From assembly GCF_036226925.1 (NCBI RefSeq), contig NZ_CP109031.1, positions 5,890,001 through 5,954,000 on the forward strand: a DNA stretch of 64,000 nt, given 5' to 3'. Below the pieces are notes generated by a model. That model did not search any database. It saw only the letters and a list, made by a program, of their open reading frames with translations, and was not told where the DNA came from. The stretch comes from Streptomyces sp. NBC_00659 (GTDB lineage: Bacteria; Actinomycetota; Actinomycetes; Streptomycetales; Streptomycetaceae). The translations under genes and the position numbers were made by a program. Positions 32,433 to 48,629 of the stretch are shown in pieces; positions within the stretch are counted from its first letter, which is position 1; each line of letters begins with the position of its first letter.

Positions 32433-33767
32433 GTGCCAGCAAGTACCTCGAAGTCGCTGCGAGTGGCCGTCCTCGCGGATTCCGACACCCGGTGGAAGTG
32501 GGGTTCGCTCACCGCGAACCGCGTCTCCCCCGCAGGATCGGACATCCACCTCGACGGATTCCTCCTGCGCGGCCGTGCCACCCCGACCGCCCGCCAGCTC
32601 GAAGAGGTCGGCGTCCGAGCGGACTCCCTCCGCGAGGTCACCGCCCTCGAATTCCTGCGCGAGCTGGGCCAGGAGGACGACGTCTACGACGTGGTCGTCC
32701 TCGCCCTGGTCGGCGGTGCCGTCCAGGCGGTCCTGCACGGCCTCTCCCGCGCCTGGGAAGGACGCGCGAAGCGGCCCCTGGTCGTCACCGGCTATGTCGG
32801 CGTCGTCTACGAGAAGCTCGCCGACGGGCTGCTCCTGCGGCACGGCGCGGACCTCGTCCTCGCCAACTCCCGCCAGGACGCGGACCGCTTCCGGGCCGTG
32901 TACGAGGGGGTCGGAGCCGACGCCGGGTCGGTGACCGAGGTCGCGCTGCCCTTCCTCGGCGGGGCCGCGTACGCGGAGCACGACCCGTCCGAGCGGCCGG
33001 GGCGGCCCTACACGGTCGTCTTCGCCGCCCAGCCCTCCGTGCCGGAGAGCCGCAAGGACCGTACGTACCTGCTGGACCGGCTCATCGGCCACGCGCGGCT
33101 GCACCCGGACCGCGAGGTCCTGCTCAAGCTGCGCTCCAAGCCGGGCGAGCACACCACGCACATCGAGGAGCTGCCGTACCAGAAACTGGTGCAGAAGGCG
33201 GATCCGCCGGCCAACTTCCGGCTGGTGTACGGGCACATGGGTGAGGTCCTCGACCGCACCGACTTGCTCGTCACCATCAGCTCCACCGCCGCCCTGGAAT
33301 CCCTGCACCGGCGCATCCCCACCGTCGTCCTCAGCGACCTCGGGGTGCGCGAGGCGCTCGGCAACCACCACTTCGTGGGCTCGGGCTGCCTCGCCTCCTG
33401 GGACCAGCTCGACACGGGGCACCGGCCGGTGCCCGACCCGGACTGGGTGGCCCGGCAGGGCGTCGCCGCCGACGGATCGTACGAGACTGCCTTCGACGCG
33501 GCACGGCAGCGCATCACCGGACTGCTCGCTGCGGACGAGCTGCCGCCGCTCGCTCCCTACTACACCCCCGTCACCGCGCCCGGCTATCTGCCCGGCATCC
33601 TCGCCCGCCACCACCTCGGCCCGGACGGCAGCCCGCTGCCCGGTGCCCCGGCGGCGGACCGGGAACCCAGCCCCGTACGGCAGTTCGTGCGCCGGGCCGC
33701 CCGCGGCGCCTACCGCCACGGCGTCCAGCGCGTGGCACCGGTGATCCGGCGGATGGGTGAACTGTGA
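32433..33767 (+). CDS. DUF6716-type putative glycosyltransferase
   Basis: A 444-residue soluble protein from GTG 32433. It looks like a GT-B-type enzyme: SLRVAVLADSDTRWKWG at the start, HGADLVLANSRQDADRFR in the middle, and ADPPANFRLVYGHMGEVLDRTDLLVTISSTAALESLHRRIPTVVLSD in the C-terminal half, where STAALES and the Gly-Ile/Val-Pro strand resemble the nucleotide-sugar site of polymer glycosyltransferases. It precedes the CMP-nonulosonate genes on the same strand with a 76-base gap, so it probably uses their product. Specificity is inferred from context. Confidence 0.72.
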   Translation: MPASTSKSLRVAVLADSDTRWKWGSLTANRVSPAGSDIHLDGFLLRGRATPTARQLEEVGVRADSLREVTALEFLRELGQEDDVYDVVVLALVGGAVQAVLHGLSRAWEGRAKRPLVVTGYVGVVYEKLADGLLLRHGADLVLANSRQDADRFRAVYEGVGADAGSVTEVALPFLGGAAYAEHDPSERPGRPYTVVFAAQPSVPESRKDRTYLLDRLIGHARLHPDREVLLKLRSKPGEHTTHIEELPYQKLVQKADPPANFRLVYGHMGEVLDRTDLLVTISSTAALESLHRRIPTVVLSDLGVREALGNHHFVGSGCLASWDQLDTGHRPVPDPDWVARQGVAADGSYETAFDAARQRITGLLAADELPPLAPYYTPVTAPGYLPGILARHHLGPDGSPLPGAPAADREPSPVRQFVRRAARGAYRHGVQRVAPVIRRMGEL

Positions 33768-33843
33768 GCGCCCCGACAGCGGGCAGCCCGCGGACCCCCG
33801 CCCCTCACGCCTCTCTCGCCTCCCTCGTCAAGGAGAACAGCGC

Positions 33844-35151
33844 ATGACCAACTCCGAAGCGGGCCAGGCCGCGCCGGTGCGCCGCGTGCTCGCGGTGATC
33901 CCCGCGCGCGGCGGCTCCAAGGGCGTGCCCGCCAAGAACCTCCTGCCCGTAGGCGGTGTGCCGCTGGTGGCCCGCGCGGTGCGCGAGTGCCGCGCCGCCC
34001 GCCTCGTGACGGACGTCGTCGTCTCCACCGACGACCAGGCCATCGCGGCGGCCGCCCGCCAGGCCGGCGCCGAGGTCGTGCTGCGCCCCGCCGCCATCGC
34101 CGGGGACACCGCCACCTCCGAGGCCGCCGTCCTGCACGCCATGGACACCCACGAGGCGCTGCACGGCTCCCCGGTCGACGTGGTCCTGCTCGTCCAGTGC
34201 ACCAGCCCGTTCATCATCCGCGAGGACGTGGACGGGGTCGTGGACGCGATCGTCTCGAACGGCGCGGACACGGCGCTGACCGTGGCCCCCTTCCACGGCT
34301 TCGTGTGGCGCGACGGCGACGACGATCCCACGGCCTCGGTGGCCGCCGGGACCGAGCGCGCGACCGCCGACGGCGGCACCGGCGTCCTGGTCGCGGAAAC
34401 CGCCGTCAGTGGCGGTTACGGCGTCAACCACGACAAGTCCTTCCGCCCGCGCCGCCAGGACCGCCCCCAGGACCTCCTGGAGACCGGTGCCGTCTACGCC
34501 ATGGAGGCCGCCGGCTTCCGCGTCGCGAAGCACCGGTTCTTCGGCCGCACCGAACTCGTGCGCACCGACCCGGCCCGCGTGCTGGAGATCGACGACCCGC
34601 ACGACCTCGCCCGCGCCCGGGCCCTCGCGCCGCTCTTCGACGCGAACCGGCCCGGCACCCTCCCGACCGCAGCCGACATCGACGCGGTCGTCCTCGACTT
34701 CGACGGCACCCAGACCGACGACAGGGTGCTGATCGACTCCGACGGACGGGAGTTCGTCTCCGTGCACCGCGGGGACGGACTCGGTATCGCGGCTCTCCGC
34801 AAGAGCGGGCTGACGATGCTGATCCTGTCCACGGAACAGAACCCGGTCGTCGCAGCCCGGGCCCGGAAGCTCAAGATTCCGGTCCTGCACGGCATCGACC
34901 GGAAAGACCTCGCACTGAAGCAGTGGTGCGAGGAGCAGGGCATCGCGCCTGAGCGCGTGCTCTACGTCGGCAACGACGTCAACGACCTCCCCTGCTTCGC
35001 CCTCGTGGGCTGGCCGGTGGCGGTCGCGAGCGCCCACGACGTCGTGCGCGGCGCCGCACGCGCGGTCACCACCGTCCCCGGTGGCGACGGCGCGATCCGA
35101 GAGATCGCCAGCTGGATCCTCGGCCCTTCTCTCGACTCCCTCGACAAGTAA
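33844..35151 (+). CDS. Acylneuraminate (Kdn-type) cytidylyltransferase fused to HAD phosphatase
   Basis: A 435-residue fusion. Residues 15-245 are the CMP-sugar synthetase: VLAVIPARGGSKGVPAKNLLPVGG binds CTP, and LLVQCTSPFI and ETGAVYAMEAAGF are family blocks. Residues 275-435 are a KdsC-like HAD phosphatase: VVLDFDGTQTDD has the nucleophile and acid Asp residues, LILSTEQNPVV and YVGNDVNDLPCF complete the site. One chain could thus dephosphorylate a 9-phosphononulosonate and activate the free sugar with CMP. With the synthase next door this suggests CMP-Kdn (or a related nonulosonate) for teichulosonic acid. ATG 33844 has AAGGAGA upstream. Confidence 0.87.
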   Translation: MTNSEAGQAAPVRRVLAVIPARGGSKGVPAKNLLPVGGVPLVARAVRECRAARLVTDVVVSTDDQAIAAAARQAGAEVVLRPAAIAGDTATSEAAVLHAMDTHEALHGSPVDVVLLVQCTSPFIIREDVDGVVDAIVSNGADTALTVAPFHGFVWRDGDDDPTASVAAGTERATADGGTGVLVAETAVSGGYGVNHDKSFRPRRQDRPQDLLETGAVYAMEAAGFRVAKHRFFGRTELVRTDPARVLEIDDPHDLARARALAPLFDANRPGTLPTAADIDAVVLDFDGTQTDDRVLIDSDGREFVSVHRGDGLGIAALRKSGLTMLILSTEQNPVVAARARKLKIPVLHGIDRKDLALKQWCEEQGIAPERVLYVGNDVNDLPCFALVGWPVAVASAHDVVRGAARAVTTVPGGDGAIREIASWILGPSLDSLDK

Positions 35152-35164
35152 GGAACGTTTCACC

Positions 35165-36100
35165 ATGAGCAACTCCCGTCTGCGCAACTTCGGTTCGAAG
35201 ACCGCCGGCCCCGGCCACCCCGTCTACGTCGTCGGCGAGATCGGCATCAACCACAACGGTGAGCTCGAGAACGCCTTCAAGCTCATCGACGCCGCCGCCG
35301 AGGCCGGCTGTGACGCCGTCAAGTTCCAGAAGCGCACCCCGGAGATCTGCACCCCGCGCGACCAGTGGGACATCGAGCGCGACACCCCCTGGGGCCGCAT
35401 GACCTACATCGACTACCGCCACCGCGTGGAGTTCGGTGAGGACGAGTACCGCCAGATCGACGAGTACGCCAAGAGCAAGAACATTGACTGGTTCGCCTCC
35501 CCGTGGGACACCGAGGCCGTCGCCTTCCTGGAGAAGTTCGACGTCCCGGCCCACAAGGTCGCCTCCGCCTCGCTGACCGACGACGAGCTGCTCCGCTCGC
35601 TGCGCGCCACGGGCCGCACGGTCATCCTCTCCACCGGCATGTCGACGCCGAAGCAGATCCGCCACGCGGTCGAGGTCCTCGGCTCGGACAACATCCTGAT
35701 GTGCCACGCCACGTCGACCTACCCGGCGCAGGCCGAGGAGCTCAACCTCCGCGTCATCAACACCCTGCAGGCCGAGTACCCGAACGTTCCGATCGGCTAC
35801 TCCGGCCACGAGACGGGCCTGCAGACCACGCTCGCCGCGGTCGCCCTCGGTGCCGCCTTCGTCGAGCGTCACATCACCCTCGACCGCGCGATGTGGGGCT
35901 CCGACCAGGCCGCCTCCGTCGAGCCGCAGGGCCTGACCCGCCTCGTCCGCGACATCCGCACCATCGAGGCCTCCCTCGGCGACGGTGTCAAGAAGGTCTA
36001 CGACTCCGAGCTCGGCCCGATGAAGAAGCTGCGCCGCGTCACGGGCGTCGTCGCCGAGGCCGAGATCGCCGCGGCCGCGGGCGAGCCCGTCTCGGTCTGA
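35165..36100 (+). CDS. N-acetylneuraminate/Kdn-9-P synthase family protein (NeuB-type, no SAF domain)
   Basis: A 311-residue TIM barrel that condenses phosphoenolpyruvate with a hexose or hexose phosphate. YVVGEIGINHNGELENAFKLIDAAAEAGCDAVKFQ is the NeuB opening, STGMSTPKQI and GYSGHETGLQTTLAAVALGAAFVERHITLDR carry the metal and substrate residues. The C-terminal antifreeze-like (SAF) domain of usual 340-350-residue NeuB proteins is absent: the chain ends soon after the barrel. It starts 13 bases after the fusion gene, with AAGGAA before ATG 35165. The phosphatase domain next door suggests a phosphorylated acceptor such as mannose-6-P. Confidence 0.88.
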   Translation: MSNSRLRNFGSKTAGPGHPVYVVGEIGINHNGELENAFKLIDAAAEAGCDAVKFQKRTPEICTPRDQWDIERDTPWGRMTYIDYRHRVEFGEDEYRQIDEYAKSKNIDWFASPWDTEAVAFLEKFDVPAHKVASASLTDDELLRSLRATGRTVILSTGMSTPKQIRHAVEVLGSDNILMCHATSTYPAQAEELNLRVINTLQAEYPNVPIGYSGHETGLQTTLAAVALGAAFVERHITLDRAMWGSDQAASVEPQGLTRLVRDIRTIEASLGDGVKKVYDSELGPMKKLRRVTGVVAEAEIAAAAGEPVSV

Positions 36101-36138
36101 ACACCCTGAATTCCTTACGACGGGACGGTCGTACGTCG

Positions 36139-37218
36139 ATGAGCCCTCGCGCCGGTTCCGCCGGCTCCACCACTCTCGCCTTCGTCGAGAGTCCGGTACA
36201 GCTCCTGAACGTGCTGGAGTGGGCGCACGCACACGCCCACAACGGTGCGGCGCCCGGCGCGGGGCTCACCCTCGTCGTCCTGTCTCCCAACGACCCGATG
36301 ACCCGCGGTCAGCTCCGCCGGATGGCGGAACTGGCGCGCGACGAGGGTCACACGGTCCGCTGGGAGGAGGCGCGCGGCGGCACCACGGCCCCCTTCCACA
36401 CCATCGGGGGACTGACACCGATGCTGCGCCGGGCCCGGCGCATCGTCATGGGGGACCCGTTCTCCCGCTATGTGCAGCTCCTGCTGACCATCACCAGGGC
36501 GCGCGACCTGGTCGTGGTCGACGACGGCACGGCGACGATGGAGTTCGTCGCCCAGCTCGCCCGCGGTGAACGCCTGGTGCGCTGGCACCGGCGCGGTGGC
36601 CGCCCCGGCCCGCGGGACGTGCTCTTCGCTCCCGTGTCCGCCTCGGCCCGCCGCCGGCTGACGCCCAGCGAGCGCCGTACGGTCGAGGTCTTCTCCTCGA
36701 TGCCGATCGAATCGGCGCCGGACGGCGTCACCATCACCGCCAACGACTTCTCCTGGACCCGGGCCCGGTTCGGCCCGCCGCGCATCACCAAGAGCGCGGA
36801 CATGGTCGGCACCTCGCTGGTCGAGACCGGCGTGGTCGACCCGGACCGCTATCTGGACGCCGTCCGCGCGCTGGCCAAGGCGCACGGCGCGACCCGCTAC
36901 TTCGCGCACCGCCGGGAGAGCTCCGACAAGCTGCACCGGCTGGCCGTCGAGACGGGTCTGGAAATCGTCCGGCCCGACCTGCCGCTCGAACTGATCGCCC
37001 GGCGCGGTCCCATAGGCCGGACGATTCTGAGCTTCCCGTCCACGGTCGTGCACACGCTGCCGCTCGCCCTGGCTGGCACCGAGGTGCGCGTCGCGGTCTG
37101 CGACATCGACCCGAGCTGGCTGACGGAGAACGCCTCTCCGCGCGCCCAGGGTTTCCTGTCCGGGGTCACCGGGACCGCCCGGGACGTCCACCGTCTCTCG
37201 GCGGTCTCCATTATCTAG
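36139..37218 (+). CDS. GT52/sialyltransferase-like protein of the wall-polymer locus
   Basis: A 359-residue soluble protein. TLAFVESPVQLLNVLEWAHAH resembles the opening of GT52-type sialyltransferases (ESP/TP-x-QLLN), and DLVVVDDGTATMEFVAQL resembles their DDG motif; the C-terminal TILSFPSTVVHTLPLALAG is also in place. The family link is by eye only. It is the last gene of the operon beginning at 32433, followed by a terminator. It probably transfers the CMP-activated nonulosonate. Confidence 0.65.
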   Translation: MSPRAGSAGSTTLAFVESPVQLLNVLEWAHAHAHNGAAPGAGLTLVVLSPNDPMTRGQLRRMAELARDEGHTVRWEEARGGTTAPFHTIGGLTPMLRRARRIVMGDPFSRYVQLLLTITRARDLVVVDDGTATMEFVAQLARGERLVRWHRRGGRPGPRDVLFAPVSASARRRLTPSERRTVEVFSSMPIESAPDGVTITANDFSWTRARFGPPRITKSADMVGTSLVETGVVDPDRYLDAVRALAKAHGATRYFAHRRESSDKLHRLAVETGLEIVRPDLPLELIARRGPIGRTILSFPSTVVHTLPLALAGTEVRVAVCDIDPSWLTENASPRAQGFLSGVTGTARDVHRLSAVSII

Positions 37219-37273: not shown

Positions 37274-37346
37274 CTCCGTGCATCCGCCACATGATCTACG
37301 CGGATCAATCCGGTCCCTCCGGGCGCATCCTCCACGATGAGCGCAC

Positions 37347-37387
37347 TGAACAGCCGCGCGCTGTTCACCAGTTCTCCATAGTTCACG
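37347..37387 (+). promoter_or_regulatory. Palindrome and PHO-box-like repeats upstream of pstC
   Basis: TGAACAGC (37347-37354) and GCTGTTCA (37360-37367) make a perfect 8-bp inverted repeat with a CGCGC centre. Overlapping its right arm are GTTCACC (37363), GTTCTCC (37371) and GTTCACG (37381). These look like PhoP units, but the spacings are 8 and 10 rather than 11, so the PHO-box reading is tentative. The site lies about 95-120 bases before the start of pstC. Confidence 0.45.
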
Positions 37388-37481
37388 CGTTGGGGGGACA
37401 CGATCCGGCCATTGAATCGCAGCGCGCGGTACCGATCGTGGGCCGCGCGGGGATTCCGTTTCCGGAATGGGGGGACAGCAC

Positions 37482-38621
37482 GTGGCGTCCGCGCAAGAGG
37501 AGTCCGACAGACCGGAGTCCGACAGACCGGGATCCGGAACACCGGAACCGGGAGAGCCGGTATCCGGCATACCGGAGTCCGGTACTTCGGTCTCCGGGGG
37601 ACCGGAGACCGGCGGTGCCGTCTCCGGCCGGACGGAGCTCGAGGAGCTCACCCCCCGGCGGCTCAACGCGGCCCGCGGCCTCGGTGACCGCGTCTTCCGG
37701 TACCAGCTCACCGCCACCGGCATCGCCGTCCTGGCCGTCATGGCGGGGGTCGGACTCTTCCTCCTCCTGCGGGCCGGTCAGGCGCTGCGGGCCCGGGGCT
37801 TCGCCTTCCTCACCACCGCCGCATGGCAGCCGGACGTCCACAACTTCGGCATCGCGGCCGTCATGACCGGCACCATCCTGATCGCCCTGGTCGCGGTGTC
37901 GATCTCCGTGCCGCTCGCCGTCGGAACCGCCCTGTTCATCACCGACGTGGCCCCGCCCGGACTGCGCCGCACTCTGGTGTCGATGGTCGACCTGATGGCG
38001 GCCGTCCCCTCGGTGGTGTACGGGCTGTGGGGGCTGTTCTTCTTCCAGCAGCACGTGATCGGCCTGTCGCGCTGGCTCTCCACCTGGTTCGGCTGGATCC
38101 CCCTGTTCCAGGTGGACGGTGCCCAGCCCGGCGAACCGCTCGCGTCGGAGAGCGTCTACACGGCTTCCACCTTCATCGCAGGGATCGTCGTCGCCCTGAT
38201 GGTCGCGCCGATCCAGTGCTCGGTGATGCGCGAGGTCTTCTCGCAGGCCCCGGCCGGCGAACGCGAGGGCGCCTACGCGCTCGGCGCCACCCGCTGGGGA
38301 ATGATCCGCGCGGTCGTCCTGCCGTACGGCAAGGGCGGCATCATCGGCGGCACGATGCTGGGGCTCGGCCGGGCGCTCGGCGAGACGATCGCGGTGTACA
38401 TGATCATCTCGCCGGTCTTCACCATCCAGCTCCACGTCCTGCAGACCGGCTCGAACTCGGTCTCCTCGCTGATCGCCCTGCACTACGGCGACGCCTCGAC
38501 GTTCGGTATGTCGGCGCTGATGGCGGCGGGCCTGGCGCTGTTCCTGCTCACCCTGGCGGTCAACTTCACCGCCTCCTCCGTGGTGGCCCGCAGCCGCTCC
38601 GGCGCGCAGAGCGAGGCATGA
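37482..38621 (+). CDS. pstC: Phosphate-type ABC transporter permease PstC
   Basis: A protein of about 379 residues. The first 60 residues are a disordered, repeat-like Ser/Pro/Gly/Thr stretch (encoded by CCGGAGTCCG-type repeats), unusual for PstC. Then six membrane helices follow with the Pst features DLMAAVPSVVYGLWGLFFF and the EAA loop GAYALGATRWGMIRAVVLPYGKGGIIGGTMLGLGRALGETIAVYMI, which docks on the ATPase. GTG 37482 has GGGGGGA at good spacing; ATG 37467 is the alternative. It opens an operon whose spacing to pstA is one base. Confidence 0.9.
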   Translation: MASAQEESDRPESDRPGSGTPEPGEPVSGIPESGTSVSGGPETGGAVSGRTELEELTPRRLNAARGLGDRVFRYQLTATGIAVLAVMAGVGLFLLLRAGQALRARGFAFLTTAAWQPDVHNFGIAAVMTGTILIALVAVSISVPLAVGTALFITDVAPPGLRRTLVSMVDLMAAVPSVVYGLWGLFFFQQHVIGLSRWLSTWFGWIPLFQVDGAQPGEPLASESVYTASTFIAGIVVALMVAPIQCSVMREVFSQAPAGEREGAYALGATRWGMIRAVVLPYGKGGIIGGTMLGLGRALGETIAVYMIISPVFTIQLHVLQTGSNSVSSLIALHYGDASTFGMSALMAAGLALFLLTLAVNFTASSVVARSRSGAQSEA

Positions 38622-38622
38622 G

Positions 38623-39918
38623 ATGACCGTCATCGAAGAAACGTCCCTGTCCGGCGTGCGTGACACCGCGCCCGTGCCCGCGGACATCGAGGTGGAGCAG
38701 GCGCCGCACGCGCCGGAGCCCCCCCGGCCGCGCCGCATCGGCGGCGTCAGCCGCTCCGGGGTGCTGGCCCTGTGCGGTGCCGCCGCCTCCGCGCTCTGCG
38801 CCACCGTCCTGCTGTTCGGCCAGCTCGCCCCGTTCTCGGGCGTCCTGGGCTTCACCGTCACCGCCTACCTCGTCTTCCTGGCGATCTACGCGGTGCTGAC
38901 CGGCCTCGAGGAGGACGGCCAGGCCGTACGCGACCGGGTCATGACGGTCGTGCTGTGGACGGCGGCCTCGCTGCTGTTCTCCGGCCTGTTCATGGTCGTC
39001 GGCTTCACCGGCTGGCGCGGCAAGGACGCCCTGCCGCACGGCAACTTCTTCACCGAGGACATGCAGGCCTCGGGCCCGCTCGACCCGCTCACCCACGGCG
39101 GCATCGCCCACGCGATGCTCGGCACCCTCACCATGATCGCCATCGCCCTCGCGATCACCGTGCCGCTGGGCCTCGCCTGCGCCGTGTACCTGAACCAGAT
39201 CCCGGGCCGGTTCTCCCGGTTCGTCCGGACGATCGTCGAGGCGATGACCGCGCTGCCCTCGATCGTCGCCGGTCTGATGGTGTACGCCACCTGGATCCTC
39301 GGCCTCGGCATGCAGAAGTCGGGCCTCGCGGCAGGCTTCGCGATCAGCGTGATGATGCTGCCGATCGTCATCCGGGCCTCCGACGTGGTGCTGCGCCTGG
39401 TGCCCGGCAACCTCACCGAGGCCGCGGAGGCGCTCGGCGCGCCGCGCTGGCGCACGGTGTGGCACGTCGTACTGCCCACCGCCCGCTCGGGTCTGGCCAC
39501 CGCCGTCATCCTCGGCACCGCCCGCGGAATCGGCGAGACCTCGCCCGTCCTGCTCACCGCCGGCTTCACGGCCGCGCTCAACGCGGACCCGACCAGCGGG
39601 CCGATGGTCTCGCTGCCGCTCGCGGTCTTCAACTTCGTCAAGTCGCCCGAGCCCACGATGATCGCCCGCGGGTTCGGCGCCGCCGCCGTCCTGATGGCCC
39701 TCGTCCTGGTGCTGTTCGTCATCGCCCGGGTGATCGGCGGGCGCGGCCCCGGTCACCAGACCAAGCGCCAGGCCCGCCGTACCGCCCGGGCCTCACGGCA
39801 GGACGTACGGCGCTTCGAGGACCTGCACGCGCCCGGCCTGTCCCTGTTCGAGAGCCCCGGGGGATCGCACCCCACGGAAACCGCCCTGTCCGCCCCCGCC
39901 ACCGGAGAGACCGACTGA
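38623..39918 (+). CDS. pstA: Phosphate-type ABC transporter permease PstA
   Basis: A 431-residue protein, longer than usual PstA (about 280-300). An N-terminal Pro/Glu-rich cytoplasmic stretch is followed by three extra hydrophobic helices (about 44-125), then the standard permease core with LTMIAIALAITVPLGLACAVYL, IVEAMTALPSIVAGLMVYATWIL and the EAA loop EAAEALGAPRWRTVWHVVLPTARSGLATAVILGTARGIGETSPVLL. The C-terminal 60 residues are charged. Its stop overlaps the next ATG (TGATG). Confidence 0.9.
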   Translation: MTVIEETSLSGVRDTAPVPADIEVEQAPHAPEPPRPRRIGGVSRSGVLALCGAAASALCATVLLFGQLAPFSGVLGFTVTAYLVFLAIYAVLTGLEEDGQAVRDRVMTVVLWTAASLLFSGLFMVVGFTGWRGKDALPHGNFFTEDMQASGPLDPLTHGGIAHAMLGTLTMIAIALAITVPLGLACAVYLNQIPGRFSRFVRTIVEAMTALPSIVAGLMVYATWILGLGMQKSGLAAGFAISVMMLPIVIRASDVVLRLVPGNLTEAAEALGAPRWRTVWHVVLPTARSGLATAVILGTARGIGETSPVLLTAGFTAALNADPTSGPMVSLPLAVFNFVKSPEPTMIARGFGAAAVLMALVLVLFVIARVIGGRGPGHQTKRQARRTARASRQDVRRFEDLHAPGLSLFESPGGSHPTETALSAPATGETD

Positions 39919-41681
39919 TGCGCAGCCACCTCCACTCCGCCCTCGGGCGCCTTCGGGCACTCGGGACGCTCGGCGCGCTGCTCGGCGTGATCGCCGCGCT
40001 GCTGGCCGGTCCGCTGGCGGCCCCGGCCGCCGCCGACAGCTACACGCCGATATCCGGCGCCGGCTCCACCTGGGCCGAGAACGCCGTCGACGAATGGCGT
40101 CGTGCCGTCAACCAGTACGGCATGCGGATCAGCTACGCCGGCACCGGTTCCTCCGACGGCCGCCGTCAGTTCCTCAGCGGCACCGTCGACTTCGCGGTCT
40201 CGGACATCCCGTTCCAGACCCACCCGACCGACGGCTCGGCCGCCGAACGGCCCGCGTCCGGCTCGTACGCCTACATGCCGATCGTGGCCGGCGGCACCGT
40301 CTTCATGTACCACCTGACCGTCAACGGCAAGCGGGTCACCAACCTGCGGCTGTCCGGCGACGTGGTCACCAAGATCTTCACCGGCGTCATCAAGACCTGG
40401 GACGACCCGGTCATCAAGGCCGACAACCCGGGGCTCCAGCTCCCGCACCGCACCATCGTCCCCGTCGTACGCTCCGACGGCTCGGGCTCCACCGCCCAGT
40501 TCACGATGTGGATGGCCAACCAGCACAAGTCGCTGTGGCAGTCCTACTGCCGCAAGGTCGGCCGCTCCGGAGCCTGCGGGCAGACCTCGTACTACCCGAC
40601 CGTCCCCGGCATGATCGCCCAGTCCGGCGACCTCGGTGTCGCGGGCTACGTCGCCCAGAACTACGGCGAGGGCGCGATCGGGTACGTCAACTACTCGTAC
40701 GCCCTGAACGCGCACTATCCGGTCGCCAAGGTCCTCAACCACGCGGGCTACTACACCGAGCCGACCCCGCAGAACGTCGCGGTCTCGCTGCTCAAGGCGA
40801 AGATCAACACCGACAGGAGCTCCGCGGACTACCTCACCCAGAAGCTCGACGGTGTCTACAACGACTCCGACCGGCGCAACTACCCGCTGTCCAGCTACTC
40901 GTACATGATCCTGCCCCTGAAGGTGCAGGGCACCTTCACCAAGGCCAAGGGCAAGACGCTCGGCGCGTTCTCGTACTACTTCATGTGCCAGGGCCAGCAG
41001 CAGGCCCCCTCGCTCGGCTACTCGCCCCTGCCGATCAACCTGGTGAAGGCGGGCTTCGACCAGATCCGCCGCATCCCGGGCGTGCAGGCCCGGAGCATCA
41101 ACCTCAAGGGCTGCAACAACCCGACCTTCTCCAACGACGGGCACAACAAGCTCGCCGACACCGCTCCCTACCCGGCCGCCTGTGACAAGAAGGGCGCCCC
41201 GGCCTGCACCACCGGCAGCGGCGGCGCCAAGGCGGGCGGCAGCACCGGCGGTTCGGGCTCCACGGGCGGCACGAGCGGCGGCTCCGCCTCGGGCGGTTCC
41301 ACCAGCGGTGGTTCGACCGGCGGCGGCACCACCGGAGGAAGTTCGGGAAGCGGCGGCACAGCCGCGACGGGCGGTACCGGCGGCAGCGCCGAACCGGTCG
41401 TCGACCCGGACACCGGACAGACCCTGTCGCCCGGCACCGGCGGCGGCTCGGGGACCGGCTCCTCGGGCGGCGGCAACGGCGGCACCGGCGCGCTGAACGA
41501 CACCATCGCGCTCGCCCAGCCGGTCTCCGTGGCCGGCAGCCAGGGCTGGACCGGCACCCAGACGCTGATGCTGATCGCGGCCTTCCTGGTCCTCGGGCTC
41601 GTCCTGCTGCCCTCCGTGGTGTCCCGGGCGATCGCCGGGCGCGGCGCGGGCAAGGACGCCGGAGAGGGGCAGAAGCGATGA
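39918..41681 (+). CDS. Membrane-anchored PstS-like phosphate-binding protein
   Basis: A 587-residue protein with a signal peptide (residues 1-38, ending APAAADS). The PstS fold covers about 40-430: SGAGSTWAENAVDEWRR and YAGTGSSDGRRQFLSGTVDFAVSD are the phosphate-contact loops, VPVVRSDGSGSTAQFTMWM the other. A Gly/Ser/Thr linker of about 85 residues follows, then a membrane helix (about 549-569) with a basic tail, so the domain is tethered to the outer face of the membrane through a wall-spanning arm. Normal Streptomyces PstS is a lipoprotein of about 375 residues. It is coupled to pstA on one side and to the 915-residue gene on the other (ATGA). Confidence 0.85.
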   Translation: MRSHLHSALGRLRALGTLGALLGVIAALLAGPLAAPAAADSYTPISGAGSTWAENAVDEWRRAVNQYGMRISYAGTGSSDGRRQFLSGTVDFAVSDIPFQTHPTDGSAAERPASGSYAYMPIVAGGTVFMYHLTVNGKRVTNLRLSGDVVTKIFTGVIKTWDDPVIKADNPGLQLPHRTIVPVVRSDGSGSTAQFTMWMANQHKSLWQSYCRKVGRSGACGQTSYYPTVPGMIAQSGDLGVAGYVAQNYGEGAIGYVNYSYALNAHYPVAKVLNHAGYYTEPTPQNVAVSLLKAKINTDRSSADYLTQKLDGVYNDSDRRNYPLSSYSYMILPLKVQGTFTKAKGKTLGAFSYYFMCQGQQQAPSLGYSPLPINLVKAGFDQIRRIPGVQARSINLKGCNNPTFSNDGHNKLADTAPYPAACDKKGAPACTTGSGGAKAGGSTGGSGSTGGTSGGSASGGSTSGGSTGGGTTGGSSGSGGTAATGGTGGSAEPVVDPDTGQTLSPGTGGGSGTGSSGGGNGGTGALNDTIALAQPVSVAGSQGWTGTQTLMLIAAFLVLGLVLLPSVVSRAIAGRGAGKDAGEGQKR

Positions 41682-44425
41682 GCTCCCGCAGCACGGGACC
41701 CCGCACCCCAAGACCCGTGGCCACGAGCCCGCGGACACGCGGGAGAGCACTGCTCCGCGTGCGACGGCTGCTCCTGCGCGTCGTCGCCGGAGCCGCCGTG
41801 GGAGCCCTCGCCGGCCTCGGCGTGGCCCAGACGGCGGCCCCCGCGTCCGCCGCGGGCAGCGCGGACGCCACCTCCTCGGCCGTCACGGTCTCCGGCCGCG
41901 GCGAGTTCGAGGACCTGAGGTTCACCGTCGACCAGACCACCCACCTGACCAGTCAGGCGATCACGGTCTCCTGGTCCGGCGGCACCCCGACCACCTTCGC
42001 GGGCACGTCGTTCAACACCGACTTCGTGCAGATCATGCAGTGCTGGGGCGACGACGACGGCACGGTGCCGTCCAACCCCGGCCCCGCGCGCACCCAGTGC
42101 CAGTACGGCGCCTCCCCGACCACCGACCGGGGCAGCTGGCCGGGCAACGACTACGACGACACCCGCAAGGTCTTCTACAGCGCCGACCCCGCCAACTACG
42201 GCCAGGACAACCGGTACGGGGCGGCCAACCCCAACGCCCCGGGCGAGGTGCCCTTCAAGTCCGTCGACGGCACGGTGATCACCTCCGGCACCCAGAACAA
42301 CGCCTTCTTCAACCGCAACACCACCAACGAGGTCGACTTCGCCCGCACCGGCGCCGACGGCACCGGCAAGGAGTACTTCGAGGTCCAGACCGCCAACGAG
42401 GCCCCGCACCTGGGCTGCGGTCTGCCGGTCACCGCCAACGGTGGCACCAAGCCCCGCTCCTGCTGGCTGGTCATCGTCCCGCAGGGCCACCTCGACCTGG
42501 ACGGCGAGCCGTACGCCGACCACAGCCAGGTCAACGCCGGCTCCCCGGTCTCCTCCACCAACTGGCAGAACCGCGTCGCGATCCCGCTCGGGTTCAACTC
42601 GGTCGGCAGCAACTGCGCGCTCGGCGCGAAGGAACGCGCCACCACCGGCAGCGAGCTCGCCGCCGACGCCATGACCAGCTGGCAGGCGGCCCTGTGCCCG
42701 ACCGGCACGGTGTACGGCTACACCGAGCTGGGCGAGCCGGACACCCGCGCCCGCCTCACCGACGACGGCTCCTCCGGACTCGCCTTCACCACCCGCGCCC
42801 TCGGAGCCGACACGGGGACCACAGCGCCCTCGGACCCGACCGTGTACGCGCCCGTCGCGCTCTCCGGAACGGTCATCGGCTTCACCGTCGAACGCAGACC
42901 CAAGGCGGGCGCGCCGGACTCCGTCCGCAGACTCGCGGGCACCAAGGTCGAGTCCGTCGACCTCACCCCGCGGCTGGTCGCCAAGCTGCTCACCGAGTCG
43001 TACCGCAACTCGCCCTGGGGAGCGGTGCTCGGCGACAACACGGCCACCGGCTACGGCTGGGCGAGGACCAACCCCGCCGGCCTGGCGAGCGACCCCGAGT
43101 TCATCTCCCTCAACCCCGAGTTCGCGGACCTGTCGGTCTCCGAGACCCCGTCCACCGACACCGACCTGATCACCTCGCTCGGGCACAGCGACTCCGCCCG
43201 CGCGCTGTGGCAGTGGATCCTCGCCGACAAGGACGCCCGCGGCTTCCTGGCCGGTGACGCCGACGACTGGGGCACCCAGGTCAACCCGTACTACAGCACC
43301 ACCGCGTCCCGGAACCCGACCGGCATCGCCTTCGACCCCGCGAGCTCCGACGACTACCCCAAGAGCGACCCCTGGTGCGCGATCCCGCCGGGCACCGACG
43401 CCACGATCAAGCAGTGCATGACCGACTTCCACCCCTACGTGGAGGACATGCACTCCGGCGCCCTGCACACGCGGCGCGCGGACACCCTCTGGAAGTCCAG
43501 CTGGGACGCGCTCGCCAACCCGCCCGCGTTCAAGAGCCCGGGACCCCAGACCGTCGGCTCCCGGTTCGTGATCACGGTCACCGACGCGGCCTCCGCCGCG
43601 CGCTACGGCCTCCAGACCGCCCGGCTGCGCAACACCGCCGGCAAGTTCGTGGGCCCCGCCGCGGCATCCCTGACCGCGGCGTCCGACGGCGCCACCGGCA
43701 CCGGAGCCCCCGAGATCACCCCGGCCACGGCCTCCGCGGAGGGCGCCTACCCGCTCGCCCAGCTCGTCTACGCGGCCGTCCGCCCCGCCGGGATCGACAC
43801 GGCCGCCCGCAAGGACTACGCGGCCCTGCTGCGGTACGCCGCGGGTGACGGACAGACCAGCGGCGCCGACCCGGGCCTGCTCCCGGCCGGCTACGCCCCG
43901 CTCCCGGCAGCCCTGCGCACCAAGGCGACCGAGGCCGCCGACGCCCTCGTCCACTACACCGCCCCCAGCTCGACGCCCTCGGGCGGCTCGGACTCCTCCG
44001 GCGGTTCGAACGGCGGCACCACGGGCGGCAGCGACTCCGCCGGCTCCGACGGCGGAACGGGCGGCACCGGCACCGGAGGCTCCACGGGCGGCGACGGCGG
44101 AAGCGCCGCAGGCGGCGGCAGCGGCGCCACGCCGAGCGCCGGCGCGAGCACGAAGCCGAGCGCCGCGGCGTCCTACGACGGCGGCAAGGCCGTACAGACC
44201 ACCGCGCTGGGCACCACGCCCGACGACCCGGCCAACTCCCTGCGGTATGCCGTCCCGGTCGGTGCCGCGCTCGGCGCCGCCGCCGGCATCGGCGCGCCGT
44301 TCGCCGGCGGCGGCAGGCTGCGGCTTCCGCTGCGCGTCCCGCTGCCCGGCGGCCGTGGAGTGACCATCCCCGCGTTCACCCTGCCCGAGTGGCTGCGCAA
44401 GCGGCTGCCCTCCGGCCGGAGCTGA
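41678..44425 (+). CDS. Large secreted protein of the pst locus, partial PstS-like character
   Basis: A 915-residue protein. A long basic signal peptide (to about residue 59) is followed by about 700 residues rich in Thr/Asp/Asn/Gly with paired Cys (MQCWGDDDG...ARTQCQYG; HLGCGLPV...KPRSCWLV; WCAIPPG...KQCMTDF), suggesting disulfides. Segments such as VALSGTVIGFTVERRPKAG and SLGHSDSARALWQWILADKDARGFLAGD recall substrate-binding-protein loops. A Gly/Ser/Thr linker (about 767-835), a weak hydrophobic stretch and a basic end follow. No LPXTG is present. I do not recognise a full family. Position inside a pst operon with ATGA coupling suggests a surface component that works with the transporter. 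Confidence 0.75.
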   Translation: MSSRSTGPRTPRPVATSPRTRGRALLRVRRLLLRVVAGAAVGALAGLGVAQTAAPASAAGSADATSSAVTVSGRGEFEDLRFTVDQTTHLTSQAITVSWSGGTPTTFAGTSFNTDFVQIMQCWGDDDGTVPSNPGPARTQCQYGASPTTDRGSWPGNDYDDTRKVFYSADPANYGQDNRYGAANPNAPGEVPFKSVDGTVITSGTQNNAFFNRNTTNEVDFARTGADGTGKEYFEVQTANEAPHLGCGLPVTANGGTKPRSCWLVIVPQGHLDLDGEPYADHSQVNAGSPVSSTNWQNRVAIPLGFNSVGSNCALGAKERATTGSELAADAMTSWQAALCPTGTVYGYTELGEPDTRARLTDDGSSGLAFTTRALGADTGTTAPSDPTVYAPVALSGTVIGFTVERRPKAGAPDSVRRLAGTKVESVDLTPRLVAKLLTESYRNSPWGAVLGDNTATGYGWARTNPAGLASDPEFISLNPEFADLSVSETPSTDTDLITSLGHSDSARALWQWILADKDARGFLAGDADDWGTQVNPYYSTTASRNPTGIAFDPASSDDYPKSDPWCAIPPGTDATIKQCMTDFHPYVEDMHSGALHTRRADTLWKSSWDALANPPAFKSPGPQTVGSRFVITVTDAASAARYGLQTARLRNTAGKFVGPAAASLTAASDGATGTGAPEITPATASAEGAYPLAQLVYAAVRPAGIDTAARKDYAALLRYAAGDGQTSGADPGLLPAGYAPLPAALRTKATEAADALVHYTAPSSTPSGGSDSSGGSNGGTTGGSDSAGSDGGTGGTGTGGSTGGDGGSAAGGGSGATPSAGASTKPSAAASYDGGKAVQTTALGTTPDDPANSLRYAVPVGAALGAAAGIGAPFAGGGRLRLPLRVPLPGGRGVTIPAFTLPEWLRKRLPSGRS

Positions 44426-44431
44426 GCTCGC

Positions 44432-44505
44432 GGAGCGCGGGCCCGCCGGGCCCGCGCTCCCCACAGACGGCCGCCCGCCCCGAAAGGCAGTCGGGGCGGA
44501 CGGCC
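44432..44505 (+). terminator. Two consecutive hairpins inside the operon
   Basis: GGAGCGCGGGCCC/GGGCCCGCGCTCC (44432-44460) is a 13-bp perfect stem. GGCCG-CCGCCCCGA/TCGGGGCGG-CGGCC (44469-44505) is a second stem with one mismatch. They separate the 915-residue gene from the 664-residue gene and may partly terminate or stabilise the transcript, allowing different protein amounts. Confidence 0.6.
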
Positions 44506-44562
44506 CGTACCACCCTGCCAGATCCTCCCGACGTCACGTCGCACACCCTCTGGAGACTCTCA

Positions 44563-46557
44563 ATGCGCACGATGCGCCTTTCGGCGGCCATGGTCGCCGC
44601 CGCCGTGGTGTCCGGCACGCTGGCTCTGGCGAGCCCGGCGTCCGCCGACCCCACCCCCGCCGGCACCTTCCGCAAGCTGGTCGGCGTGGGCTCGGACACC
44701 ACCCAGGACGTGCTCAACGCCCTTGCCGGTGACACGGTCAACGGCAAGGCCTACGCCGACACCGCCGTGAAGGCGGTGAGCGGTGCGGGCGTCGCCTCCT
44801 ACGACGCGATCGAGCCCGGCACCGGCTCCACCACCTCGAGCATCCAGACCCGCACGGGCGGCCCGACCTTCCAGCGCCCCAACGGCTCCGGCAAGGGCCG
44901 CCTCGCCCTCAGCATGTCGCTGACCGGCGACAAGTTCCCCGACAGCTCGGGCGTCTCCATCAAGGGCCAGGTCGACTTCGCCCGCTCCTCCAGCGGCCCG
45001 AGCACCTCCGGCACCGCCTTCACCTACATCCCGTTCGCGCGTGACGCGGTCGGCGTCGCGGTCCACGGCCCGGGCCTGAACACGCTGACCGTCGACCAGC
45101 TCCACGACATCTACTCGGGCACGCTGACCGAGGTGAACGGCCAGACCGTGCACCCGAAGATCCCGCAGAGCGGCTCCGGCACCCGCAAGTTCTTCCTCGG
45201 CGCCATCGGCCTCACCGACGCCACGCTCTCCCCGAACGTCGCTGTCGTCCAGGAGAACCAGGCCAACGGCGCCCTCGACGCGGACGGCACGCTCGTCCCG
45301 TTCTCGGTGGGCAGCTGGATCGCCCAGAACAACGGCGTCTCCCCGGACTTCAGCACCACCGCGGCCGCCGCCGGCGCCCACCTGGCCGCCGTGCAGCTGC
45401 CCGGTGACGAGGGAGCCACCACCCCGGTCGCCACCGTGAACGGCAAGCTCGCCCCGGTCGGCGCCTACTACGAGAACGCCACCTTCGGCCGCGACGTCTA
45501 CAACGTCGTCCCGACCCGGGCGATCGACCCGACCGGCATCTTCTTCGACAAGGACCTCTACGACGTCTTCGTCACCAGCGGCACCCACGAGGCGGCCCTC
45601 GCCTCCGACGCCGCCGAGGGCGTCATCGCCAAGTTCGGCTTCGTGAACGAGTCCTACAACGGCTCGGTCAACCCGGCCAAGCACGCCAAGCTGGGCGGCC
45701 TGGAGGAGTCCGGCGTCGACGCCTCGACCCCGGCCGCGCCGGCCCTGAGCGGCACCCGCGGCGACGGCAGCGTCAGGCTCAACTGGACCGCCCCGTCCGC
45801 CACCGGCCTCCCGGTCACCGACTACCGCGTGACGCTGACCGGTTCGGACGGAGCCGTCGTGGCCGTCAAGGACCTCCCGGCCGGCACCCTGACGTACACC
45901 TTCAGCGGTCTGGCCCTCGGCCACTACACGGCCGAGGTCGCCGCCGCCAACCTCAACGGCCTCGGTGCCGTCGGTACCTGGACCGGCGACATCAAGTACA
46001 CGACCGCCCTGAAGGCGACCACCGCGACGACCGCGTACGGCAAGACCCCGAAGGTCGCCGTCACGGTCACCGACACGCACGGTGTCGTCCCGACCGGCAC
46101 GGTCACCGTGAAGGAGGGCACCACCACCCTCGGCACGGGCACCCTGGACAGCACCGGCAAGGTCTCCGTCAGCCTCTCCAGCCACCTCAAGGTCGCCAAG
46201 CACAGCCTCACGGTGTCGTACGCGGGCAACAGCAAGCTGCTGACGTCCAACGGGACCGTCTCGCTGACCGTCTCGAAGGCGACCCCGGCCGTCACCACCA
46301 CGGCGCCGGCCTCGATCAGCCACCTCTCGCAGGCCAAGGTCACCGTCAAGGTCACCGCGACCGGCACCACGCCGACCGGCACGGTCCGCATCTACGAGGG
46401 CTCGCGCGTCATCGCCACCGGCACCCTGAGCGGCGGCAAGGTGACCGTCAAGCTGCCGAAGCTGTCCCGCGGCACGCACACCCTGCACGCCTGGTACGTG
46501 GGTTCCACCACCGTGAACTCGAAGAACGGCGCCAACTTCAAGATCAAGTCCACCTGA
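44563..46557 (+). CDS. Secreted PstS-like protein with FN3 and Ig-like repeats
   Basis: A 664-residue protein with a signal peptide (1-28, ASPASADP). A substrate-binding fold at about 30-385 reads KLVGVGSDTTQDVLNAL, VDFARSSSGPSTSGTAFTYIPFARDAVGVAV and IPQSGSGTRKFFLGAIG, which are PstS-type loops. Then come a fibronectin-III domain (about 390-475) and two Ig-like repeats (about 480-570 and 575-664; TTAYGKTPKVAVTVTDTHG...GNSKLLTSNGTVSLTV). The repeats should extend the binding domain through the wall. There is no membrane anchor or sorting signal. ATG 44563 is preceded by TGGAGA. Confidence 0.85.
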   Translation: MRTMRLSAAMVAAAVVSGTLALASPASADPTPAGTFRKLVGVGSDTTQDVLNALAGDTVNGKAYADTAVKAVSGAGVASYDAIEPGTGSTTSSIQTRTGGPTFQRPNGSGKGRLALSMSLTGDKFPDSSGVSIKGQVDFARSSSGPSTSGTAFTYIPFARDAVGVAVHGPGLNTLTVDQLHDIYSGTLTEVNGQTVHPKIPQSGSGTRKFFLGAIGLTDATLSPNVAVVQENQANGALDADGTLVPFSVGSWIAQNNGVSPDFSTTAAAAGAHLAAVQLPGDEGATTPVATVNGKLAPVGAYYENATFGRDVYNVVPTRAIDPTGIFFDKDLYDVFVTSGTHEAALASDAAEGVIAKFGFVNESYNGSVNPAKHAKLGGLEESGVDASTPAAPALSGTRGDGSVRLNWTAPSATGLPVTDYRVTLTGSDGAVVAVKDLPAGTLTYTFSGLALGHYTAEVAAANLNGLGAVGTWTGDIKYTTALKATTATTAYGKTPKVAVTVTDTHGVVPTGTVTVKEGTTTLGTGTLDSTGKVSVSLSSHLKVAKHSLTVSYAGNSKLLTSNGTVSLTVSKATPAVTTTAPASISHLSQAKVTVKVTATGTTPTGTVRIYEGSRVIATGTLSGGKVTVKLPKLSRGTHTLHAWYVGSTTVNSKNGANFKIKST

Positions 46558-46588
46558 TACAGGGCTTGTCGAGCACCACCGGCAGTAC

Positions 46589-46626
46589 CCCGCCGGGGGG
46601 CGCCCAGCGCGGCGCTCCCCGGCGGG
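46589..46626 (+). terminator. Hairpin between the PstS-Ig gene and the sortase-like gene
   Basis: CCGCCGGGGGGCGCC and GGCGCTCCCCGGCGG pair over about 16 bases with one G-U, about 30 bases after the stop codon. It is likely a terminator or attenuator inside the locus. Confidence 0.6.
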
Positions 46627-46677
46627 ACCCCTTCCCGCCCCACCCGTCCATGAGTTGAGTGAAGGAGACGTGCAGCC

Positions 46678-47586
46678 GTGACGGTCGCCGTACAGACCAC
46701 GCTCGCAACACCCGCGCCGCGGCCGGTCGTCCGGAGCGTCACCGCCGTCCGGCATCTCGCCCGCGGCGGCCTGCTCACCCTCGCGGCTCTGCTGCTCGGC
46801 CTCACCGCGCAGCTCCTGTTCGTCAGCGGTCTCCAGGAACGAGCGGCGCAGCACACCGCGTACGACTCCCTGCGCGCCCAACTGGCCCTGGGCACCGCCC
46901 CGGTGGCCCAGACCGACCAGCAGGGCGACCTGCTCGCCCCCGGCACCCCGGTCGCGATCGTCGACATCCCCGCCCTGCACGTGCGTCAGGTGGTCCTGGA
47001 GGGAACCGACTCCGGCGTCATGACCGACGGCCCCGGCCACCGCAGGGACACCCCGATGCCGGGGCAGGCCGGCACCAGCGTGCTGATGGGCCGCGCCGCC
47101 GCGTACGGCGGTCCCTTCGAGCACCTCGACGAACTCGCCGCCGGCGACACGTTCAGCGTGACCACCGGCCAGGGCAAGGCGAAGTACCAGGTCTTCGGTG
47201 TCCGGCGCGCCGGTGACCCGGCGCCCGCCCCGCTCGACGCGGGCAAGGGCCGCATGGTCCTCCTCACGGCCACCGGGCCGGACTTCATGCCCGGCGGAGT
47301 GCTGCGCGTCGACGCCGAGCTGGTCTCCGCACCCGCGCAGACCCCCGCCGCGGTCATCCGCTCCGGCACGCTTCCCGAGTCCGAACAGCCGCTGGCCAGG
47401 CCCGGCGGAGTGCCGTGGCCGCTGGTGATGTGGCTCCAGGCGCTGATCGCCGTGGCGGTCGCCGCGGTGTGGGCCTGGCACCGCTGGGGCCGCCACCAGA
47501 CCTGGATCGTGTTCGCACCGGTCGTCGCCGTTCTCGGCCTCCAGGTCGCGACCCGCGCCACCGAACTGCTGCCGAACCTGATGTGA
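46678..47586 (+). CDS. Membrane sortase-fold protein lacking the catalytic triad
   Basis: A 302-residue protein with an N-terminal membrane helix (about 30-50), a sortase-like domain (about 85-220) and two C-terminal helices (about 246-268, 276-297), the topology of class E/F-type actinobacterial sortases. [50 protein letters not shown] and [22 protein letters not shown] align with the sortase fold. The catalytic His (normally AGHR) is Arg139, the Cys (normally TCT) is Ala198, and no Arg stands at the usual position (Arg210 is three residues beyond it). It should bind but not cleave. It lies between the secreted PstS-Ig gene and pstB. GTG start, with GAAGGAGA upstream. Confidence 0.82.
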
Positions 47587-47654
47587 CCCCGCCGACCGGC
47601 CCCACCCCCGTGACCCAGCCGAGCCCGACCCGATCCCGCCATGAGGTGCCCGAC

Positions 47655-48629
47655 GTGACCGATGCGACCGCCGCGCGTGACAGCGCCGCGACCGAGACCG
47701 CCCCGACCGGCAGTGTGCCGGCCGCCATCGCCGGGACCGGCCGTGCGCCGGCCGGCGCGACCGCCGTGATCGCCCCGGGGACCGCCGTGGCCGACACCGT
47801 CGCGCTGCCGCCCGTCCCGTCGGACAGGACGTTCCCGGCCCGGCCCGTGGCCGCCCCCGCCGAACTCGACGCGCGCGAGGTGTCGGCCTGGTTCGGCAGC
47901 CACCTGGTGCTGGAGCGCGTGTCCCTCACGATGCCCGCCGGGCAGGTCACCGCCCTGATCGGCCCCTCCGGCTGCGGCAAGTCGACCTTCCTGCGCACCC
48001 TCAACCGGATGCACGAACTGATCCCCTCCGCCGCGATGGCCGGCGAGGTGCTCTTCGAGGGCGAGGACATCTACGCCCCCGAGCGCCGGCTGACCGAGGC
48101 CCGGCGCCGGATCGGCATGGTCTTCCAGAAGCCGAACCCGTTCCCGGCCATGTCGATCTACGACAACGTGGTCGCGGGCCTGCGTCTGACCGGCACCCGC
48201 GCGGGCCGCCGGGAGAAGGACGAGCTGGTCGAGGAGAGCCTGGCCCGGGCCGGCCTGTGGAAGGAGGTCCGGGACCGGCTGCGGCAGCCCGGCGGCGCGC
48301 TCTCCGGCGGCCAGCAGCAGCGCCTGTGCATCGCCCGCGCTCTCGCCGTACGGCCCCGGGTCCTGCTGATGGACGAGCCGTGCTCGGCGCTCGACCCGAC
48401 GTCCACCCGGCGCGTCGAGGAGACCATCCACGAACTCGCCGGCGAGGTGACCGTCGTGATCGTCACCCACAACATGCAGCAGGCGGCCCGCGTCTCGCAG
48501 CAGTGCGCCTTCTTCCTCGCCGAACAGGGCACCCCGGGCGGCATCGTCGAGCACGGTCCCACCACCGACATCTTCGGCACCCCGAAGGACCAGCGCACCG
48601 CGGACTACGTGGCAGGCCGCTTCGGCTGA
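47655..48629 (+). CDS. pstB: Phosphate-type ABC transporter ATPase PstB with long N-terminal extension
   Basis: A protein of 324 residues. The first 70 are Ala/Thr/Pro/Val-rich and disordered, absent from normal PstB. The ATPase core has Walker [10 protein letters not shown] (about 103-111), the PstB stretch [26 protein letters not shown], the Q-loop [17 protein letters not shown], signature [15 protein letters not shown], Walker [13 protein letters not shown] and H-loop [18 protein letters not shown]. It would energise PstC/PstA at the membrane. GTG 47655 has GAGG eight bases upstream; GTG 47646 is possible. No phoU follows. Confidence 0.9.

Follow-up and report, generated by a model that had tools for sequence, protein, structure and literature searches.

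Organization of the locus

The window analysed here, a 64,000-nucleotide stretch of the genome of Streptomyces sp. NBC_00659 (a single contig of 9,661,321 bases), contains a cassette of seven genes, all on the + strand, spanning positions 37467-48629 in the order pstC-pstA-P3-P4-P5-P6-pstB. From its sequence, we take the cassette for a variant form of the Pst phosphate importer that includes a conserved pseudo-enzyme of the sortase kind together with two receptor-like proteins, both with seemingly altered phosphate sites. An earlier inspection of the letters alone (the sequence-only reading) had placed four genes between pstA and pstB, a layout borne out by the gene coordinates. The overlaps that it described are also present (TGATG for pstA/P3, ATGA for P3/P4); in addition, pstC and pstA are one base apart, P6 and pstB overlap in GTGA, and gaps of 137 and 120 bases lie upstream of P5 and P6, respectively. 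The genes and the features within them are as follows.

37467..38621, +, pstC, phosphate ABC permease (TIGR02138, 243.8 bits, cut-off 196.45)
38623..39918, +, pstA, phosphate ABC permease (TIGR00974, 206.1 bits, cut-off 193.45)
39918..41681, +, P3, PstS with signal peptide, linker and C-terminal helix (TIGR00975, 205.7 bits, cut-off 205)
41565..41621, +, C-terminal hydrophobic segment of P3, with GWTxTQTLM ahead of it
41678..44425, +, P4, 915 amino acids
42626..43969, +, PstS-fold domain of P4, residues 317-764
44216..44257, +, tail motif of P4, TPxDPAxxLRYAVP, ahead of a hydrophobic stretch (tail pattern in 52 of 56 rows)
44563..46557, +, P5, with a PBP-like domain whose phosphate site is seemingly altered, and with two Big_3_5 arms
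46678..47586, +, P6, predicted membrane pseudo-sortase
47092..47094, +, codon 139 of P6, Arg replacing the catalytic His (Arg in 52 of 52 rows)
47269..47271, +, codon 198 of P6, Ala replacing the catalytic Cys (Ala in 50, Ser in 1 and Thr in 1 of 52 rows)
47583..48629, +, pstB, phosphate ABC ATPase (TIGR00972, 345.5 bits, cut-off 343.2)

The cut-offs passed by pstC, pstA, pstB and P3 are the curated ones of NCBIfam. The PstC of the window aligns to E. coli PstC (9k3s) and retains GLGRALGET, and its PstA aligns to E. coli PstA (9k3x). P3, P4 and P5 each begin with a hydrophobic segment, which agrees with the secreted character ascribed to them earlier. A hydrophobic C-terminal segment is clear in P3, weak in P4 and lacking in P5.

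The sequence-only reading had also remarked on the lack of phoU at the locus and proposed a search for a classical pst set with phoU elsewhere. Both were found: phoU lies outside the cassette at C1:4568526, and a housekeeping Pst set comprises a PBP_like_2 protein (C1:4640681), PstC (C1:4641852), a PstA-like match (C1:4642985) and, in the same stretch, PstB. Because these genes lie elsewhere in the genome, the cassette is a second Pst system. Its PstC shares 68-71% identity with the counterparts in two clusters from Acidimicrobiia (L050, L051) as opposed to 41% with the strain's own housekeeping PstC, and the same pattern holds for PstA (60% vs 40%), PstB (75-78% vs 57%) and P3 (59-63% vs 31%). 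Since identity is higher to the Acidimicrobiia clusters than to the strain's own housekeeping genes, the cassette is not a recent copy of the latter. Judged by sequence, PstC and PstA form an ordinary Pst channel with PstB as its motor, and all three fall in a subfamily separate from that of their housekeeping counterparts, which supports the earlier suggestion of a dedicated channel. Apart from its two Pst loci, the genome encodes a further PBP_like_2 protein (100.3 bits) at G000:C1:5212200-5212964 (L069).

The pseudo-sortase P6

P6 has a sortase fold, matching the Sortase domain at 55.5 bits (cut-off 26.6), with three hydrophobic segments surrounding the domain. The best-scoring NCBIfam sortase model is that of class E (NF033747), at 69.4 bits against a cut-off of 160 that is not reached. 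Neither the catalytic His nor the catalytic Cys occurs in any of the 52 close P6 rows or of the eight diverged copies from clusters, and P6 is likewise dead in 7/7 copies from a draw of genomes within the genus (partly the same genomes) and in the single copy from a genome with a split cassette, G407. Both residues are kept in 11/11 other sortase genes of the window genome and in 6/6 P6 relatives outside the clusters, and GHR stands in all 52 rows vs GHY in four active sortases. The P6 alignment (A2) used 24 of the 52 sequences, and the tree 27 of 32 rows, a motif filter having removed five (two dead, three active).

That the sortase is dead is a surprising result backed by good controls. On these residues P6 is predicted to be incapable of acting as a normal working sortase, and their loss suggests an enzyme that has been turned into an assembly part. 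The sortase-like protein of the sequence-only reading thus retains its fold and its standing as a conserved partner, without the catalytic His and Cys. In public records, close relatives of P6 are named “sortase” (best 120 of 1551 relatives), and those of P4 are “hypothetical protein” or “PBP domain-containing protein”. Because the relatives of P6 and P4 carry such wrong or empty names, a whole transporter variant has been hidden.

One intact and two seemingly altered phosphate sites

The three PstS relatives were mapped onto the phosphate-ligand residues of E. coli PstS. In P3 the ligand columns are kept over 56 rows, two of which are without the N-terminal part: T/S52, S79, D97, R186, D188, S190 and G191, numbered one higher than by counting from the ATG at 39918, the exceptions being a single Glu at D97 and another at D188. 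P3 is therefore a PstS that retains its phosphate site, a predicted phosphate binder, and appears to be anchored by a C-terminal helix in place of a lipid. PstS is usually a lipoprotein in Gram-positive bacteria; there is no lipobox in P3, nor in P4 or P5, and P3 has the hydrophobic C-terminal segment in its place. A motif of the type GWxxxQTL is found in 45 of 56 P3 rows.

The 915-residue secreted protein is present as first described, with the correction that it, P4, is itself a relative of PstS and has the PstS fold. It consists of a beta-rich N-terminal region, the PstS-fold domain with a seemingly altered pocket, a linker and a tail. At the phosphate-ligand places it has E326, a GEPD-type turn, T372/R373 and HSD505, and lacks the Arg as well as both Asp of PstS; E326, R357 and D505 are invariant (56/56 rows). 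One possibility is that a salt bridge fills the P4 cleft. Of 57 P4 sequences, 41 entered the alignment (A1); the frames of L006 (613 aa) and L044 (539 aa) look broken and were kept as they are, but excluded from A1.

P5 matches PBP_like_2 at 37.9 bits (cut-off 27) and has two Big_3_5 stretches. Of the arms proposed for it, the Ig-like ones are thus confirmed and the FN3 ones find little support, with no Pfam fn3 match in P5 and E values of 0.008-0.12 against FN3-bearing PDB chains. By motif, P5 keeps S-G-T, but the Arg, Asp and Asp of PstS correspond to Pro, Ser and Ser in it, the profile match being very weak (probability 5%); D45, R105 and R141 are invariant in 51/51 rows. From sequence, and in the case of P4 also from a single-chain model, P4 and P5 would both be PstS relatives with altered phosphate sites. 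The earlier view that all three proteins capture phosphate is not supported, the phosphate-site residues being kept in P3 only.

The tails of P3 and P4 share a general plan of conserved motif, hydrophobic segment and basic tail, with no LPxTG. An LPxTG- or LAxTG-like motif is absent from the last 90 residues of P3 (0/55) and P4 (0/56), and occurs near the C terminus of P5 in 3/50.

Distribution and movement of the cassette

A search with P4 yielded 56 loci from Streptomyces, Actinacidiphila, Planotetraspora, Cellulomonas and draft genomes of Acidimicrobiia/Actinomycetota, Candidatus Microthrix parvicella RN1 among them. All seven genes stand in the order of the window in 35 of the 56, which answers the call of the sequence-only reading for a survey of their co-occurrence. 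P5 follows pstB in eight further loci and precedes pstC in two; of the remaining 11 loci, ten end at contig edges and one is L043, the ninth with its P5 after pstB. P5 is thus the gene least fixed in position. P6 is present in all 51 loci with more than 2,060 bases beyond P4, and is missing in five, each with at most 2,060 bases there. Being conserved far beyond the window strain, the cassette is not a product of chance.

In a sample of the phylum, drawn evenly as 396 genomes, P4 matched in 12, and the count of cassettes was set at 10 because two of them, G274 and G385, show PstS-like genes only. A strong P6 match (>=157 bits, a line drawn after viewing the list, with at most five candidates scored per genome) was found in nine of the 396, and all nine also carry P4; the next match below the line, at 125 bits, is an active sortase. 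In the genus draw, P4 was found in 8 of 41 genomes, counting that of the window, and the loci partly repeat genomes of the P4 search (L097/L001, L099/L002, L098/L004). With 10/396 phylum genomes and 8/41 genus genomes carrying the cassette or P4, the distribution is patchy but deep.

No flanking gene family is common to more than 8 of 57 loci, and a pair of cassettes occurs in each of two strains, Streptomyces sp. DSM 15324 and S. griseoruber DSM 40281 (L020 with L033, L025 with L031). Both movement and loss seem to involve the cassette as a whole. Carriage on plasmids was considered and rejected, with no P4 match in a plasmid collection at E 1e-20. In the two strains with two cassettes, the second is of a type with P5 ahead of pstC. 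In the Acidimicrobiia cassettes, additional secreted proteins are encoded in the interval from P4 to P6 and also behind P5 (L051:12484-13227, L051:17848-19836 and L050:12176-13441), one with FN3 domains and two without a Pfam match; one of the extra proteins ends in LASTG and a hydrophobic tail, resembling a class E sorting signal.

Upstream region and neighboring genes

A non-coding block upstream of pstC is conserved in many Streptomyces loci, whatever genes lie further upstream, and is probably the cassette's own promoter region.

37338..37437, +, conserved non-coding block, possible operator, with a GTTCACC-like unit at 37363

The pattern was found in 20 of 37 rows examined, and the block ends in a TTGA(C/A)T-like element. 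PHO boxes are described as two GTTCACC units in an 11-nucleotide layout (PMC4415409). With 10/14 matches, the PHO-box pair of the window does no better than shuffled sequences (p 0.15); p<0.05 is reached by 14 of 50 other loci, and the housekeeping pstS has 14/14.

Directly upstream, at 33757-37215, lie a cytidylyltransferase-HAD fusion, a NeuB-type synthase and one further gene, which we take to be genes for a wall polymer of the sialic/ulosonic-acid type.

Proposed mechanism and alternatives

We propose that the cassette encodes a further, specialised phosphate importer of the Pst type, in which a sortase that no longer cuts assembles the receptor and two pseudo-receptors; we give this proposal an even chance. 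The phosphate-import part of it is much surer than the tail-holding part. By homology, the channel, the motor and P3 would suffice for phosphate import, with P3 delivering phosphate to PstCA. P6 would no longer cut, and its sortase groove or another face would hold the tails of P4 and/or P3 beside the channel. A Cys-to-Ala sortase with a bound signal peptide is on record (PDB 8t8g), which means that a sortase may still bind peptides once its Cys is gone; for this reason, and because P6 adjoins pstB both in the window and in the split genome G407, we think it most likely that P6 has kept a groove or face for holding peptides and now serves in assembly by way of the P3 and P4 tails. P4 and P5 would act as structural or regulatory pseudo-receptors reaching into or through the wall, P5 being the outermost piece, with its Ig-like arms and no C-terminal hydrophobic segment. 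Such a wall-spanning reach is plausible from the linkers and Ig arms. In its most specific form, which we put forward only tentatively, the hypothesis would make the dead sortase a non-cutting receptor that clamps the sorting-signal-like tails of an active PstS and of pseudo-PstS proteins beside PstCAB, forming a membrane-to-wall phosphate relay that is an ancient, movable module of the Actinomycetota.

Several observations weigh against this reading. In three diverged copies of P6 the Cys is replaced by Ser, the P6 of L054 has a His one residue past the Arg (yet no Cys), and the third catalytic residue, Arg, still stands in 51 of 52 close rows. The single-chain models are of moderate quality (mean pLDDT 73.4 for P6 and 69.3 for P4), the pocket of P4 was mapped by sequence profile (probability 69%, E 4.5e-5) with moderate certainty at residue level, and that of P5 by motifs, both mappings being less certain than that of P3. 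P5 does not belong to the core, as its place varies among loci and no whole-domain match to its family was found in L083, L084 or L086, and a P3 match was not obtained in L043. The late choice of the 157-bit line and the limit of five candidates count here as well, and G366 has a dead P6 adjoining P4 that falls below that line at 98 bits. The P4 matches of G274 and G385 are PstS genes beside Pst genes at which the cassette is not shown, with no P6 within the 16 kb (L089) and 3.4 kb (L082) examined. Finally, the cassette of G407 is split, with P3-P4-P5 near 7.43 Mb and the dead P6 adjoining pstB near 8.77 Mb; the parts are more than 1.3 Mb apart (L094, L136), and pstC/pstA were found in neither of the two stretches.

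P4 and P5 might instead be genuine receptors with other ligands, either phosphorus compounds (polyphosphate, phosphate esters or wall phosphopolymers) or a different oxyanion, feeding or sensing via PstCA with P6 as a scaffold only. Both PBP families show strong conservation and their invariant polar residues lie in the presumed cleft, as such a role would lead one to expect, but the phosphate-binding Arg and two Asp of PstS are missing at the mapped places and no genes for the use of phosphate esters were identified in the cassette; we regard this as a real if minority possibility. We find it rather improbable that P4 and P5 form a sensing module, competing with P3 at PstCA or signalling the phosphate state instead of importing. 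Pst systems are known to signal (PMC7866108), and P4 retains the fold while having lost the ligand residues; however, the cassette has neither a sensor kinase nor PhoU, and PstB retains its family score.

Two further explanations are far less credible. Service to the neighboring wall polymer, in phosphate recovery or polymer assembly, is suggested by the NeuB and cytidylyltransferase genes found upstream here and in five other loci only (L001, L002, L035, L037, L038), but among the 56 loci the flanks retrieved for the remaining 51, some of them short, do not contain these genes, and the flanking families differ as described above. A wall-polymer partnership was accordingly rejected on synteny, the neighborhood noted by the sequence-only reading is not conserved, and we consider the explanation very unlikely. 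Least likely of all is that P6 is an active sortase anchoring P3, P4 or P5 to the wall: the fold and the public names of its close relatives would allow it, but it was rejected on its residues, the catalytic His and Cys being missing, and both the class E score and the near absence of LPxTG/LAxTG-like motifs in the candidate substrates speak against it.

Relation to known systems

The Pst importer of Streptomyces, PstSCAB, corresponds to SCO4139-4142 (Table 1 of PMC8269224). The cassette resembles PstSCAB of E. coli (9k3s/9k3x) and of Streptomyces in having PstC, PstA and PstB together with a single PstS whose phosphate site is intact, but differs in its two extra PstS relatives with seemingly altered sites and its pseudo-sortase, in the apparent C-terminal instead of lipid anchoring of the receptor, in the lack of phoU and in forming a sequence subfamily of its own. 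P6 shares its fold and a family resemblance with class E sortases (SrtE of Streptomyces; 5cuw, 5go5, 5go6), from which it is set apart by the lack of the catalytic His and Cys, the replacement of the Tyr of GHY by Arg in 52 close rows and a score far below the cut-off. P4 differs from M. tuberculosis PstS-1 (7dm1, 1pc3) in its extra N-terminal region, seemingly altered pocket and C-terminal tail, and the tails of P3 and P4 are like cell wall sorting signals in general layout, but unlike them in having no LPxTG or LAxTG-like motif. No description of the cassette or the pseudo-sortase was found among the best matches listed from the open-licence literature, phrases for a pseudo-sortase had no match there, a search directed at Microthrix gave no paper with all of its terms, and a term search of the 2021 review of Streptomyces phosphate transport (PMC7866108) did not return the word “sortase”. 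If our reading is true, the cassette would provide a natural sortase pseudo-enzyme with a testable set of partners, as well as an example of phosphate import that does not follow the plan of a single receptor.

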